Source: a virus
Reading direction: 5' to 3' (one strand)
DNA length: 23,245 nucleotides
Virus record (IMG/VR): IMGVR_UViG_3300042691_036534
Coordinates: 1 to 23,245 of that record
Part shown: positions 2,720 through 13,669 of the stretch, one piece after another
Position numbering within the stretch: position 1 is the stretch's first letter
Layout of the letters: each line of letters opens with the position of its first letter
Notes under the pieces: generated by a model
Databases searched by the model: none
What the model saw: only the letters and a program-made list of their open reading frames with translations
Told to the model about the DNA's origin: nothing
Program-made: the position numbers and the translations under genes

Positions 2720-2791
2720 TGGTGCGCCGATGAGATTCGAACTCACATCCACTATCAAAGATAGTACTCTTGCCAGTTGAGCTACGAGCGC
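2720..2791 (-). tRNA. Degenerate tRNA, anticodon unclear
   Basis: D arm, T arm (GTGAG/CTCAT, loop TTCGAAT), A73 and CCA are present, but the gene is only 72 nt with CCA. The acceptor 3' strand is one base short (CGGCGC), and the anticodon arm ACTAT-CTTTG-ATAGT has a 5-nt loop if paired fully. A parent with loop CTTTGAT (anticodon TTG, Gln) that lost two bases would explain it; a TTT reading needs C33. It lies directly downstream of the rRNA-mimic RNA. Confidence 0.5.
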
Positions 2792-2798
2792 AAAATGT

Positions 2799-3227
2799 TT
2801 TGCAATAACTCTGTGTGCTGCTACGCCAAAAGACACTAAAGGAAGTAACCATCGTCGGACTTCGACCTTGCGACTCTGTAACTAACATTGGCTTCATCGT
2901 TTTTCAGGGTACTGCTAACTTCATTACCTGTTGATCCATCGCCATTCCGCATTATAGATGCCTTCAGGGGCAATACACTTTGTTAGAGTGTATCGGGTCC
3001 ATACCATCTCATTATGGGCATACAACGAAGTAGCAATTCTACGCATAACAAGTTCGACTGTAAAACAGACTTGGACCACACCAGCTTAAACCGGTCTGTG
3101 CTGTATTTTATGCTGAGACCACACGACAAGTCTTGATCAGCAACCAACCAATGGCAGCGTGTCTACTCTTTAAAGGATGGCTGCTTCTAAGCCAACCTCC
3201 AGAGTTATTGCAAATTGTCAAAGAACT
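2799..3227 (-). ncRNA. Structured RNA with 23S GTPase-centre mimic
   Basis: On the minus strand a 15-bp perfect helix (3200-3214 with 2799-2813) closes about 385 nt of non-coding sequence. Just 5' is AGTTCTTTGACAA (3215-3227), an rRNA-type boxA. Immediately inside the helix is GGTTGGCTTAGAAGCAGCCA then TCCTTTAAAGAGT (about 3164-3198). As I remember E. coli 23S rRNA, this matches helices 43-44, the binding site of ribosomal protein uL11 and thiostrepton, nearly base for base. The rest has further hairpins (for example ATACACT/AGTGTAT near 2972-2993) but no rRNA match I can name. Transcription probably comes from the 3459-3487 promoter. Confidence 0.7.
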
Positions 3228-3238
3228 TGAGAACCTGA

Positions 3239-3316
3239 TTAACTGGATTTTTGCGATGCAAGATTCAGTGTGAGAATTGTTCCAAATACTCCCATCAAAA
3301 ACCCTAAAATAAACAT
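3239..3316 (-). CDS. Membrane peptide (25 aa)
   Basis: ATG at 3316 preceded by a clear AAGGAG six bases upstream, ending TAA at 3239. The product is one hydrophobic helix, MFILGFLMGVFGTILTLNL, with a short polar tail. It sits between the expanded tRNA at 3335-3426 and the boxA of the structured RNA, all behind one promoter. Short single-span phage peptides of this kind often act on host membrane functions, but nothing specific is visible. Confidence 0.6.
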   Translation of the reverse strand: MFILGFLMGVFGTILTLNLASQKSS

Positions 3317-3458: not shown

Positions 3459-3487
3459 AGTATAACATTATATCAACTGAGTGTCAA
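3459..3487 (-). promoter_or_regulatory. Sigma70-type promoter
   Basis: -35 TTGACA (3482-3487), 17-bp spacer, -10 TATACT (3459-3464), then the AAAAGAGTAGCAG tail shared with most promoters here. It drives the UAU tRNA, the 25-aa peptide and the structured RNA, and lies in the 3' end of the upstream gene. Confidence 0.85.
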
Positions 3488-3876: not shown

Positions 3877-5247
3877 ATGCGATTCACGGAATTTTTAGCT
3901 GAACTCAGACGACAAGAAAAAGAAAAATCACCCGAGCCCAAATACACAGAACTGGGCCATCCTGCTGCCATCGAATATCTCAAAGGCCGTGATCTCAGTA
4001 AGTATGCGATAACCATGACCAATTTGCCCAAAGTTGGTGTTAATCCCAGATCCACATACAAAACTCCCCTGGGCATCTACTTCTATCCAGCCGAATATTA
4101 TGTGGACGTGCAAGGTAGAGTGCCATTTCAGGCTGATGCCAAATACATCAATATTCTGCAATTGACAACCAATAAAATCTTATATCTGAATCAGATGAGC
4201 ACAAACTCAATAAATGCTGCGCTCAACAAACTCAAACAACTACCAATTACTGGCCTGGACCTCAATGGGGTTATCAATGAACTAATTAATGACGCACAAG
4301 GTGGAGCCAGAGTGCGAACAAAATCAGGAAAATTTTGGTATGTGTTGTGGAAGTTGAGCGATGAAATATCTATGCATACCTTGCATACAAAGTATTCAGG
4401 TACATCAGTTGTGTGGAATTATTTGTTTAGACAGATGGGGTACGACGTAGTCATTGATCAAGGCAGAGGCATCATACACCAACAAGAACCCACTCAGGGT
4501 TTTATTGCCAATCCACGTGGCACATATCGTTTGGAAAAAACCATTAATAATATAGGTACTTACGAATTATCCACTAAACAGTTAGCGCATCAAGCAAGTC
4601 AAAGCAGCAACAGCAAAGAAGCGGTACATCTAGCACTGGTAACTCAAAACCCTTATGTAATTGGCAAAATAAAAAACCCCAGCGAACAGGTGCAATTAGC
4701 TGCGGTTCAGGGGAACGGGCGAGCAATTGAATACATCAAAAACCCCAGCGAACAGGTGCAATTGGCTGCGGTTCAGCAGCACGGGAAGGCAATTGAACTC
4801 ATCAAAAATCCCAGCGAACAGGTGCAGTTGGCTGCGGTGCGACGAAATGGGCTGGCAATCCGGTACATCAAAAACCCCAGTGAGCAGGTGCAATTGGCTG
4901 CGGTGCAAAAAGATGGGGATGCGATCATATACATTAATGACCCCAGCGAGGCATTGCAATTGGCTGCGGTGCAACAAAATGGGACGGCAATCCGGCACAT
5001 CAAAAATCCCAGCGAACAAGTGCAACTGGCTGCGGTGCAACGAAATGGATGGGTGATCCAATACATCAAAAATCCCAGCGAACAAGTGCAGTTGGCTGCG
5101 GTGCAACAATACTGGATGTCAATACGGGACATCAAAAATCCCAGCGAGCAGGTGCAATTGGCTGCGGTGCAACAAAATGGGCTGGCAATCCGGCTCATCA
5201 AAAATCCCAGTGAAGCAGTTAAGGCAGCCGCAAAAAATCAAAAATAA
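3877..5247 (+). CDS. Putative virion protein with 22-residue repeats
   Basis: A 456-residue protein. The N-terminus MRFTEFLAELRRQE resembles T4 capsid-targeting peptides of packaged internal proteins (L-x-E is the T4 gp21 protease cleavage pattern). Residues about 25-235 form a globular domain (GVNPRSTYKTPLGIYFYP, FWYVLWKL, MGYDVVIDQGRGIIHQ) that I cannot name. Residues about 240-456 hold roughly ten 22-residue repeats with consensus KNPSEQVQLAAVQQNGLAIR plus two residues, degenerate at both ends, likely alpha-alpha solenoid (HEAT/DUF4116-like). It is read from a late box 5 nt upstream. It may be a packaged or structural protein whose repeats bind a partner; inference only. Confidence 0.8.
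   Translation: MRFTEFLAELRRQEKEKSPEPKYTELGHPAAIEYLKGRDLSKYAITMTNLPKVGVNPRSTYKTPLGIYFYPAEYYVDVQGRVPFQADAKYINILQLTTNKILYLNQMSTNSINAALNKLKQLPITGLDLNGVINELINDAQGGARVRTKSGKFWYVLWKLSDEISMHTLHTKYSGTSVVWNYLFRQMGYDVVIDQGRGIIHQQEPTQGFIANPRGTYRLEKTINNIGTYELSTKQLAHQASQSSNSKEAVHLALVTQNPYVIGKIKNPSEQVQLAAVQGNGRAIEYIKNPSEQVQLAAVQQHGKAIELIKNPSEQVQLAAVRRNGLAIRYIKNPSEQVQLAAVQKDGDAIIYINDPSEALQLAAVQQNGTAIRHIKNPSEQVQLAAVQRNGWVIQYIKNPSEQVQLAAVQQYWMSIRDIKNPSEQVQLAAVQQNGLAIRLIKNPSEAVKAAAKNQK
4610..5230 (+). repeat. 66-bp tandem repeats coding 22-aa units
   Basis: About ten in-frame 66-bp units, most starting with a variant of AAAAAYCCCAGCGARCAGGT and containing GCTGCGGT. Nucleotide conservation is high, which suggests recent expansion by unequal exchange. 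Confidence 0.9.
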
Positions 5248-9827: not shown

Positions 9828-10212
9828 AAAAACACACTCAGCAGGGACACAGGGCCCGCACTGCTGAAAAATCTTTTGTTTGGTGGTCTGAGATTACAAC
9901 CAACCCAACAGCACCTCGAGCATTATCAATCAACTTTGCGAGTCAACCTTCTCTCGATATCCACCAAACTCCTTGCGGTAATCTGGTCTGCTGTCAGCAT
10001 CGCCGTTTTTAAGGTCAGGCAGTAGACCTATCATTATGTACTACTCTGTAATTTATTATCCGCTGACCTTGCGGGCCATTCAGAGTCGCTAAACCCTTAC
10101 GAATCTTCTGTTACAAATCAGTTGGGCCTTGCGGGCTTTCACTGAGCTTGATTAGCTTGCGCTTCAAGCATTAGATGCTTTTCGTACATAACTGTGACGG
10201 ACTTTGCGTTTG

Positions 10213-10288
10213 TGATAAATGGAAGGAATTGAACCTTCAACCTACTGTTCTAAATACAGTTGCTCTACCAAATGAGCTACATTGCAAC
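10213..10288 (-). tRNA. tRNA-like domain, anticodon UUA, inside large RNA
   Basis: D arm (GCTC/GAGC), anticodon arm ACTGT/ACAGT with loop ATTTAGA and T arm GAAGG/CCTTC are intact. The acceptor is broken: 5' TTGCAATG against 3' CATTTATC pairs only four bases, and the end reads ACA. Anticodon 34-36 is TTA, which would read UAA stop codons. It is probably a structural module of the large RNA rather than a working suppressor. Confidence 0.6.
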
Positions 10289-10750
10289 CTACGATCTCGT
10301 GCCGCCACAGTTGCTAACAGATCTTTTGGATCCATTAATACAACACGAGAAGTACCTTTCTCCTGCCGGATACTCTGTGATGTTTTGCGACACTTGGGTT
10401 GCGACACCCAAACACCGCTCACATTGCAACTGAGCCCTTGACTGCAACATCTCGGACCCAATCACTACCCTTTCGTATACCTGTTCGCAAATTGGTTAGC
10501 TGGGAGGCCAGCACCACCTGTTGCTCTTCGCCAACCCTGGTTCCCTTGCAGGCCAGTCGATTGACATTCTTTCCCCAACACTTGCTTCACAGTTACATCC
10601 ACCGGTTTTTTCGGTGAACGCTACCTCGCGATAGTACGCAGGCTTGCCTGGGTGGACCATTTTGCAATGGCGCAGTCCTGTAGGAGGATACTGCTTTGGG
10701 TTGATTGCTCAACTTGTCCTAGTGGGGCCAGGCCCCCAAAAACAATTCAG

Positions 10751-11308: not shown

Positions 11309-12748
11309 CTATTTACTATTCGCTCGTGTTCGGATTTCGTCCAGTGTGTATTCGCACAGCATGTTGCCATTTTCCAAAACTGGCAGCAGCTGATCGCCCT
11401 CCACTGGGACCAGTTGTTCCTGTGTAAAGGTTTCCAGTTCGCCATCAGCATTGCGCAAAACGTACACCACACCACGCTTGCTGATCTTGCCCGGATCAGT
11501 GATGGGATCTTTGTACACTTCGTACCAAACTCCGTTAATGTCAATTGCACAGCACTTGAATGCAAACTTCAGCGTGTCTCGATCCACACCCTGCAACAGC
11601 TTGCCACCCATTCCAAAACAGGCAATGTTGTCAATGCTCCACCCAGCTGCCAGCAGTGCTTCGCACAGTTCTCGGATGGTGTTGATGTTCATACCATCGC
11701 CCTGCAACACTCGGACCTGCGGTGGTAGCACACGGTAGCCCTTGCTGTTCACAGTGTACCCAAACCGTCGACCCAGGATGTCCAGAATGCGCAATATAGT
11801 GGGAATGATTTCACCGCTGTCTGGGCGAATTACCAAAACACCATCCCGATTGAGGATCGATTCACGCAACTCAACGCCGTAGATGTTTTCGCAAGCGTTG
11901 AAGATGTCGTAGCTGTCGCTCACAATGCTCACAATACCGTTGGGGTACTGAGTGAGCATGTTACGGTATGCAGCAGATTCGCGCATTCGCCCCCAGCTGG
12001 TGATTGTACTGTGCTCGCTGGCAGGTACGCTGAAGCTGGGCATGCCGTTGGCGCCATAGTAGCGATACAAGAAAGGAATCGCAACCATAGTGTCCGAGCC
12101 CTTGAAGTTTACCAAGTGAGCAGCACCACCCACTGCGGCACTTTCCTGACTGGAAACACCTCTGCTGCCAAAGTCCTGCAACATGAAGTCAATTTTTTCA
12201 GGGGTACCGGACTGCTCCAAGTAGCCTTCAATCATCGTGCGGATGTTGCGGCTCAATGTGGCTACTGAGATTGGATACCACACTCGCATCAGCGCGGTTT
12301 CCAAATAGTTTACAAGCCAAAAACACTTGGGATCCGTGTTGACCACTGTAACCAAAGCGTTGTGAGCACGCACTCGAGTACCTTCAGCAATCGCACAAAT
12401 CCGGATAGGAAGGCGGCCGCCGTGCTCTTGTAAAATGTATCGCCAGCCTTCTTCGTTAAAGGCGTCGGGGGAACCCATGTGAGCATTGATCATCTCCTTT
12501 GCCAGCACAATCATCTCTTCGGTGATCACCACACCCTTGAGGTACCGCTTGAGGAAGTACTGTAACCCAAACATCACCTGATCGTCAAACTTGCCACCCC
12601 TGCTTTCTAGGTAGCTGAACACATATTGTGTACCCGGAGGGTACTGCCTTTTGTGACTCGTCTTATAGGAATCACTGTCAACGATCACATTGAACAGCAA
12701 ATCATCAGTAAAGTCCTGCGTGAGTTCGATAAATCGAGCGTTGGTCAT
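11309..12748 (-). CDS. nadV: Nicotinamide phosphoribosyltransferase
   Basis: A 479-residue protein close to the family length (about 460-490). It converts nicotinamide and phosphoribosyl pyrophosphate to NMN, the first step of NAD salvage. Signature regions: VDSDSYKTSHKRQYPPGTQY near residue 23, FGSRGVSSQESAAVGGAAHL near 192 with the key Arg, SEHSTITSWG near 243, DSYDIFNACE near 278, RPDSGEIIPTILR near 308 and GMGGKLLQGVDRDTLKFAFK near 377. The ATG directly follows the stop of the NMN adenylyltransferase gene (TAAATG), so the two steps are co-translated. The pair can rebuild NAD without host enzymes. Confidence 0.95.
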   Translation of the reverse strand: MTNARFIELTQDFTDDLLFNVIVDSDSYKTSHKRQYPPGTQYVFSYLESRGGKFDDQVMFGLQYFLKRYLKGVVITEEMIVLAKEMINAHMGSPDAFNEEGWRYILQEHGGRLPIRICAIAEGTRVRAHNALVTVVNTDPKCFWLVNYLETALMRVWYPISVATLSRNIRTMIEGYLEQSGTPEKIDFMLQDFGSRGVSSQESAAVGGAAHLVNFKGSDTMVAIPFLYRYYGANGMPSFSVPASEHSTITSWGRMRESAAYRNMLTQYPNGIVSIVSDSYDIFNACENIYGVELRESILNRDGVLVIRPDSGEIIPTILRILDILGRRFGYTVNSKGYRVLPPQVRVLQGDGMNINTIRELCEALLAAGWSIDNIACFGMGGKLLQGVDRDTLKFAFKCCAIDINGVWYEVYKDPITDPGKISKRGVVYVLRNADGELETFTQEQLVPVEGDQLLPVLENGNMLCEYTLDEIRTRANSK

Positions 12749-13669
12749 TTAAGCAACCTCCTGGGTTTTGCGTTCTTCCAACTTGCTGATCAGCGCATCA
12801 AACAGCACTTGGTGTTCAGGTACGATCATGTTTGAATTCAACTGGTCAATGGCAAACCAACGAGCACCTTGTACATCGTCAGCAGCACGAGCAGCGCCAT
12901 AACCGTAGTGACCTAGAAAAAATGTAGTAAAGATGCCGTCACCGCTGCCAGTGTAGCGCCAATCGTCAATTGCGGCACTTGTGACGTACTCCAGCTGAGC
13001 GATAGAAACGCCAGTTTCTTCCTGCACCTCACGCCGAGCAGCACGTTCGCCAGTCTCACCCAAGTCAATGTGACCACCAACGAAGCGCCAACGGTTTGCG
13101 CCGTCCTCATCCTTGTGGACCAACAGTAGTTCATTGCCGCGCATCACTGCCACATCCACTGTGGGATTCTTAATAGGGTAGCGGTTGGCCACCGCATAGC
13201 AGATGCCTGCACGGAAGTCTTCAGTGTCGCGCACTGTGTGAAACGCTTGCTGGCGAACCTGCGTGCCGCTTTCAGACACTGTGGCCTCTAAATCCACCAC
13301 AGGGAATTTACCGCTATAGCAATTGGAGAAACTATCGCGGCCGCCGTACAACACAACCCGTTCATGCGGGTGATAGGCGCGGACCAGCTGGTCCAGGCTC
13401 TTGCTCCAGTCTTCATTCCTGCGCTGGTCGTTGATGGGCAGCACTTCAATGCCCGGGTAGGCTTCCTGCAACATCTTTTGCCGCGTGGCAAAGTCCAGTG
13501 GATTCTTCTTAGTGGGGATCACTCGCGCCACGCCCAACAGAATCATCAGTTTGTTGTGACGACGTTGTACCGTTTCAATCAATTCTCGGTGACCAGGTGT
13601 CAAATGCGGAGTTTGAAAACGGGCAACAATTACGCCCAAATCACCGTCTGGTCCTTTGATGTTCATCAT
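12749..13669 (-). CDS. nadM: Bifunctional NMN adenylyltransferase / Nudix hydrolase
   Basis: A 306-residue two-domain enzyme. Residues 10-165: nucleotidyltransferase with GVIVARFQTPHLTPGH (the GxFxPxHxGH motif) and SESGTQVRQQAF (the ISGTxIR-like motif), making NAD from NMN and ATP. Residues 170-306: Nudix domain with the full box GGHIDLGETGERAARREVQE ending ETGV, usually hydrolysing ADP-ribose. The start is MMNIKG, with AGGAG about 5 nt upstream. It lies directly before nadV; the Nudix domain can remove ADP-ribose released by host NAD-cleaving defences. The fusion is known in phages and bacteria. Confidence 0.95.
   Translation of the reverse strand: MMNIKGPDGDLGVIVARFQTPHLTPGHRELIETVQRRHNKLMILLGVARVIPTKKNPLDFATRQKMLQEAYPGIEVLPINDQRRNEDWSKSLDQLVRAYHPHERVVLYGGRDSFSNCYSGKFPVVDLEATVSESGTQVRQQAFHTVRDTEDFRAGICYAVANRYPIKNPTVDVAVMRGNELLLVHKDEDGANRWRFVGGHIDLGETGERAARREVQEETGVSIAQLEYVTSAAIDDWRYTGSGDGIFTTFFLGHYGYGAARAADDVQGARWFAIDQLNSNMIVPEHQVLFDALISKLEERKTQEVA

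Follow-up and report, generated by a model that had tools for sequence, protein, structure and literature searches.

A viral RNA family predicted to carry the 23S rRNA GTPase-associated centre, opened in helix 44 by a variable insert

The two ends of an apparently noncoding RNA encoded in viral DNA jointly rebuild the whole GTPase-associated centre (GAC) of 23S rRNA, helices 42-43-44 (E. coli 1051-1108). This RNA lies on the minus strand, at 3214-2799, of a 23,245-nt stretch of viral DNA (IMG/VR record IMGVR_UViG_3300042691_036534, positions 1 to 23,245), which we refer to as the window. As judged from sequence comparison, it is a complete GAC whose H44 accommodates an extra domain between 1090 and 1091, and a GAC-mimic core was found in more than 100 distinct viral loci. 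By the same comparison the GAC-mimic RNA forms a widespread viral ncRNA family, carried by many large bacterial viruses, that has no Rfam entry and for which we found no published description. The structure and the family are secure; the role that we propose, binding of host uL11 and most simply a decoy, is tentative.

H43 and one half of H44 come from the 5′ part of the window RNA and the H44 loop (GGCGUAGCAGCACA) from the 3′ part, and a 15-bp helix stands in for H42 (Table 1). In E. coli numbering, the 5′ side runs through P1 (the H42 equivalent), G1056, H43 (1057-1081), U1082 to A1086, and G1087, A1088, G1089 and U1090. The insert sits between U1090 and G1091, and the 3′ side then continues with UUUG, G1091, C1092, 1093-1098, G1099, C1100, A1101, C1102, A1103 and P1′. 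The H43 stem-loop is present with U1060, C1072 and the flanking conserved residues, while the H44 GCGUANNAGC loop and the A1088 bulge are present at 3168-3165 and 2826-2814, divided by the insert. The enclosing H42 helix and the 1082:1086 pair are likewise present and are backed by covariation.

Table 1. Elements of the GAC-mimic RNA and adjacent features in the window. Equivalents are in E. coli 23S numbering.
Feature	Position	Strand	Remarks
Sigma-70-like promoter, TTGACA-17-TATACT with TG before the second hexamer	3459..3487	-	11/12 consensus match; consensus match only
P1 5′ arm (H42 equivalent, ends at G1055)	3200..3214	-	15-bp perfect pairing with 2799-2813
H43 hairpin (G1056-1081 equivalent), GAGGUUGGCUUAGAAGCAGCCAUCCU	3174..3199	-	Exact LSU model match
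H44 5′ half (1082-1090 equivalent), UUAAAGAGU, including the A1088 equivalent	3165..3173	-	LSU match, model mapping
334-nt variable insert	2831..3164	-	Closed by P2: AGACAC 3164-3159 with GUGUCU 2836-2831
3′ motif UUUG + H44 loop half GCGUAGCAGC + ACA (1091-1103 equivalent)	2814..2830	-	Model mapping
P1 3′ arm (starts at C1104 equivalent)	2799..2813	-	Pairs with 3200-3214
tRNA-Lys(UUU)	2721..2792	-	Starts 6 nt downstream of the RNA

The original prediction, made from the window sequence, had claimed a minus-strand 23S H43/H44 element, and this was borne out: minus-strand 3200-3165 (GGAGGUUGGCUUAGAAGCAGCCAUCCUUUAAAGAGU) is identical letter for letter to positions 1096-1131 of the Rfam bacterial LSU model. 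The match scores 26.2 bits (E 5.7e-6 in 801 bases), under the gathering score. It is confined to 42 nt, with the 334-nt insert following and flanks unrelated to rRNA, so that the RNA is not a contiguous 23S gene or fragment and no continuous alignment to host rRNA exists. The hairpin had been placed at the edge of a noncoding stretch of about 385 nt sealed by a 15-bp helix. The perfect inverted repeat that encloses the RNA was confirmed and the extent corrected to 416 nt arm to arm, or 386 nt between the arms; the stretch also appears noncoding, with no convincing ORF and a longest stop-free frame inside it of 59 codons. What did not hold was the view that the likeness to 23S is limited to the 5′ hairpin. 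The 3′ end at 2830-2814 (UUUGGCGUAGCAGCACA), which reads UUUG-GC-GUAGCA-GC-ACA, supplies the H44 loop. The picture of a captured hairpin joined to an unrelated remainder was thus right about the hairpin and wrong about the remainder, which completes a mimic of the whole H42-H43-H44 GAC, its H44 interrupted by a large insert. The phage RNA shares with the bacterial 23S GAC the H43 sequence, the 1082:1086 pair, the U1060-A1088 tertiary pair, G1087-C1102, the loop named above, and G/A1056 facing A1103. It differs in being free-standing, in its insert at 1090/1091 with a UUUG linker (about 37 to 365 nt across members), in having A1101 instead of U, and in the variable sequence of H42.

Single-sequence folding of the window RNA was only moderately better than that of shuffles (z -2.3), and the case for the RNA therefore rests on comparison rather than energy. 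A covariance model trained without the window matched 3208-2805 at 58.6 bits (E 7.1e-15), its sole match in 23 kb; only other members had been used for training. The window RNA lies far beyond chance. Covariation was evaluated in an alignment of 47 members from which the window was also left out. The named structure had 95.2% of cells paired, compared with 73.1% when shuffled and at most 52.1% when slid, and the covariation score was 0.567, compared with 0.139 shuffled and at most 0.152 slid. Fifteen of 24 pairs vary on both sides, comprising three of three in P2, three in H43, 1082:1086 (U-A, C-G or A-U in the homologues) and eight of nine in P1, the closing helix for which covariation had been in question; P1 has 92% of its cells paired in the homologues. 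Covariation is strong at the base of H43 and at 1082:1086, as it is in P1 and P2.

Conservation was read from two sets of members, one selected by H43, in which the 3′ part was not chosen, and one selected by the 3′ motif, in which H43 was not chosen. In the H43-selected members, UUU is kept at 96-98%, G1091 at 96%, C1092 at 98%, G1093 at 100%, U1094 and A1095 at 96% and A1098 at 98%. For the 3′-selected set, 20 of 76 distinct members among the matches listed were set aside, mostly for small insertions near H43. In the in-register members among the matches listed, G1059, U1060, G1063, G1071, C1072, C1075, A1077, A1084 and A1085 are invariant, with 1059-1060, 1071-1072 and 1084-1085 fixed by the register filter itself. 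Again among the matches listed, 66 of 68 3′-selected members have U-A at the tertiary pair U1060-A1088, and the loop is freer than the fold core at 1067, 1068 and 1070, which lie towards the factors and thiostrepton, with 73-77% consensus (A1067 77%). Sequence and covariation show the secondary structure, and they show that the pairs and unpaired residues responsible for the tertiary fold of the rRNA GAC are conserved.

Searches for homologues in viral contigs uncovered a widespread family. An exact scan with the H43 20-mer returned 93 stretches, two of which are plain 23S that runs on into an uninterrupted H44; the others that were read are isolated elements with differing flanks. At many of these loci the upstream arm pairs with a downstream arm of very different sequence, preceded by UUUGGCGUANNAGCACA. 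An independent scan for the 3′ motif gave at least 119 stretches. Among the matches listed, an H43-like stretch lay no more than 560 nt upstream of 118 of the 126 distinct strict 3′ sites, and of the eight sites without one, four are recognised by the model as full members while two are cut by the contig end. At equal looseness, a fuzzy H43 occurred in 68 of 3,000 shuffled windows (2.3%), and in none of the 3,000 with two or fewer differences. When loci were fetched with nothing but the H43 20-mer, the covariance model found a full GAC in 51 of the 54 distinct ones (E 2e-6 or better). Whether homologues lack the hairpin was answered favourably by the loci fetched by the 3′ motif, of which 92 of 95 among the matches listed, some having trained the model, hold a full GAC (E 4e-5 or better). 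After removal of near-duplicates, the 120 members among the matches listed measure 121-435 nt between model ends, with a median of 203 nt.

The RNA is present in cultured phages, among them Xanthomonas phages XacN1 and XbC2, Cronobacter phage GAP32, Pectobacterium phage CBB, Serratia phage BF, Erwinia phages (the SNUABM series and Kaldavass), Pseudomonas phages pf16, UNO-G1W1, Astolliot and Milchi, and Aeromonas phage 4_4572; in Acinetobacter phage ME3 it was seen through its 3′ end only. All 11 complete phage genomes searched with the model carry one strong copy. Two strong GAC-mimic RNAs stand in tandem at one locus (L215, 3846-4336), and Astolliot and Milchi (L115 and L113, about 1165-1480) have a diverged second copy upstream of the good one. 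Across 84,980 bacterial and archaeal species the 5′ pattern occurred in 17 stretches, of which the model recognises 10 as full members, so the RNA is rare in chromosomes. A plasmid search returned many records resembling ordinary rRNA operons.

Contamination by host rRNA, which the original prediction had considered unlikely, and chimeric assembly are excluded by the occurrence of the same architecture in complete cultured phage genomes and in more than 100 loci. True 23S pieces, which were identified as such and excluded, do exist among viral and phage records (L074, L079 and Paenibacillus phage record MZ092003.1), as an account by artefact or by neutral relic of a captured rRNA fragment would have it. 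Against these stand the constant insert position and the phage-specific UUUG and ACA in all those loci and genomes, as well as the strong covariation, and we consider this account refuted, with a negligible probability left to it. The uninterrupted 23S H43-H44 in the record MZ092003.1 of Paenibacillus phage Pd_22F (L116, ~83977-84012) is probably host rRNA that was misassembled or carried. Recent capture from a host is also unlikely. At the sites that read U1061 and GAAA in an enterobacterial-type 23S (L079), GAP32 and CBB carry U1061A and GAGU, which argues that they are not fresh copies of host rRNA, and members share both the insert point and A1101. The common insert point, the UUUG linker and an A1101 that is absent from rRNA make a single origin likely.

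An identity with a known Rfam family was ruled out, as none reached the gathering score. In 20 member loci no family other than tRNA scored at or above this threshold, and a search of the window RNA down to E 5 returned only the LSU match and a chance-level DUF805b match. No covariance model for GOLLD, ROOL, OLE or other Rfam families matched the GAC-mimic RNA at gathering score, LSU being weak and sub-threshold. The literature searched contained no report of a phage mimic of the GAC or of rRNA. Preprints and most subscription journals fell outside this search, and an earlier description there is possible. Ribosomal-protein leader RNAs such as the L10 leader also mimic an rRNA protein site. 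However, leaders are cis-regulatory and lie ahead of ribosomal-protein genes, whereas the GAC-mimic RNA is phage-borne and lies elsewhere; in the window, as in the annotated phages, it lies next to tRNAs or other genes, none of which is annotated as a ribosomal protein.

The promoter-like site lies about 245 nt upstream of the window RNA. Among the matches listed, 55 of 126 members have a tRNA within 200 nt, compared with 28% for random places in the same loci; in each of the 55 the tRNA shares the strand of the RNA, and in most it is no more than 15 nt away. The RNA would be transcribed together with neighbouring tRNAs and trimmed by tRNA processing, and in the window 5′ processing of tRNA-Lys would define its 3′ end. 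Such processing is not universal, since in XacN1 and in the GAP32/BF-type jumbo phages no annotated tRNA adjoins the RNA. The cultured phages viewed showed no conserved partner gene next to it. Other elements were observed in the window, all on the minus strand except the last. At 3426-3335 is an unannotated tRNA-like cloverleaf, detected by neither ARAGORN nor Rfam, with a 7-bp acceptor (GCGGGTT/AGCCCGC), an encoded CCA, an anticodon-type loop CUUAUAA (UAU), a long variable arm and a non-canonical T-loop (GUCGGCA; fold z -2.7). Between it and the GAC-mimic RNA, at 3239-3316, is a 25-aa hydrophobic mini-ORF with an SD-like AAGGAGA just upstream. A GOLLD RNA (9885-10351, 203.6 bits) has a tRNA-like match in its linker (10218-10283), and adjoining genes for a NAMPT-like phosphoribosyltransferase and a nucleotidyltransferase-Nudix protein form an NAD-salvage pair (11309-13669). 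On the plus strand, 3877-5247 encodes a 456-aa protein with many near-identical DUF4116-type repeats (NPSEQVQLAAVQ...).

In the ribosome, the GAC is the docking place of L11 and translation factors; uL11 is the core ligand of the fold, and its C-terminal domain reads the folded GAC core. The phage RNA probably takes hold of some component of host translation in the course of infection. We tentatively propose, from the sequence pattern described above, that it is a trans-acting ncRNA whose GAC core, joined to a variable and separately folding P2 domain, is a binding site for uL11 of the host or for another GAC ligand; its simplest role would be that of a decoy. The roles suggested in the original prediction, titration of uL11, hijacking of the ribosome or retention for the fold, all stay plausible. 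The RNA would fold like the rRNA GAC and bind uL11 off the ribosome as a decoy or sink. The uL11 bound would be that of the host, as no uL11 gene was found in the 11 carrier phages searched. If uL11, or a factor that docks at its site, were withheld from ribosomes, processes dependent on the uL11-GAC site would be weakened, most likely the activation of RelA and with it the stringent response; a second function, specific to the phage or the host, would come from the insert. The freer loop tip at 1067/1068/1070 weakly suggests that a ligand reading the folded core, such as uL11, fits better than a GTPase factor. Thiostrepton blocks the activation of RelA through the site where L11, H43 and H44 lie (PMC9998046). 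In view of the role of uL11, the physiological effect would most likely be damping of RelA, although ppGpp strongly affects phage growth both ways and helps as many phages as it hinders (PMC12814882). The main structural objection to uL11 binding is the insert, which enters the H44 stem near the contact region of the uL11 C-terminal domain and, with the change of U1101 to A, could weaken it. Moreover, because uL11 is mostly ribosome-bound, a decoy would need to be highly abundant or to target newly made protein, and inserts of up to 365 nt exceed what a sponge needs.

The main rival to a decoy is a scaffold, in which the GAC core would serve to dock uL11 of the host, or a protein of the phage, on a phage RNP that works through its variable insert; sequestration would be incidental. 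We consider this somewhat unlikely. It would account for the large P2-closed inserts in nearly all members and for their recurring sub-architectures, with CACCCC..GGUAAGG in 25 of 120 members among the matches listed and others sharing GACCCUUAGAG or GUGCGAAAUG..GUGAUGUGC; some inserts, however, are only 37-60 nt, small for a complex machine, and the inserts fold better than shuffles by a modest margin only (mean z -1.3). OLE RNA, which binds ribosomal protein bS21 via an rRNA-mimicking site (PMC12054373), offers a precedent. Both are large structured ncRNAs with an rRNA-mimicking site for a ribosomal protein, uL11 binding by the phage RNA being putative, but they have no sequence or structural relation, and OLE is chromosomal in Bacillota and binds another ribosomal protein. 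The tRNA islands are a setting in common with the large phage ncRNAs GOLLD and ROOL, which form RNA cages (PMC12286853) and of which a GOLLD copy lies within the same window; these have another fold, no rRNA GAC and no Rfam match to the GAC-mimic RNA.

The RNA might instead lure a translational GTPase, RelA or some GAC-recognising defence protein of the host, so that the phage-directed ribosome is protected. This is less probable still. Retention of both the H43 and H44 loops (A1095 96%; A1067 77% among the matches listed) fits such a lure, as does a region rich in counter-measures, namely the tRNAs and the NAD-salvage gene pair. EF-G and EF-Tu, however, require the sarcin-ricin loop and whole-ribosome contacts, which makes a lone GAC a weak lure, and the factor-facing loop tip is the freer part; we know of no defence protein that targets H43/H44. 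Finally, the GAC fold might be a tertiary module only, binding a phage protein or holding the RNA ends together with no host ligand, a reading that we regard as improbable. The insertion and U1101A would suit an evolved non-ribosomal version and the P1 sequence is free, but the uL11-site and loop nucleotides are kept exactly across distant phages, beyond what end-joining needs, and the cultured phages viewed offer no conserved adjacent gene for a partner.

The uL11 decoy, then, is the reading that we carry forward. A slightly more tentative generalisation is that these are phage RNA-mimicry decoys, in which a GAC grafted onto a variable domain would divert uL11 or a GAC-dependent factor such as RelA and reprogram translation or the stringent response. 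The family adds to current RNA libraries, from which it is missing, a widespread structured RNA found in cultured laboratory phages. If the proposal is true, phages took a functional ribosome domain as an RNA tool, phage infection would be linked to uL11/RelA signalling, and ribosome biochemistry would gain a natural GAC with a permissive insertion site.
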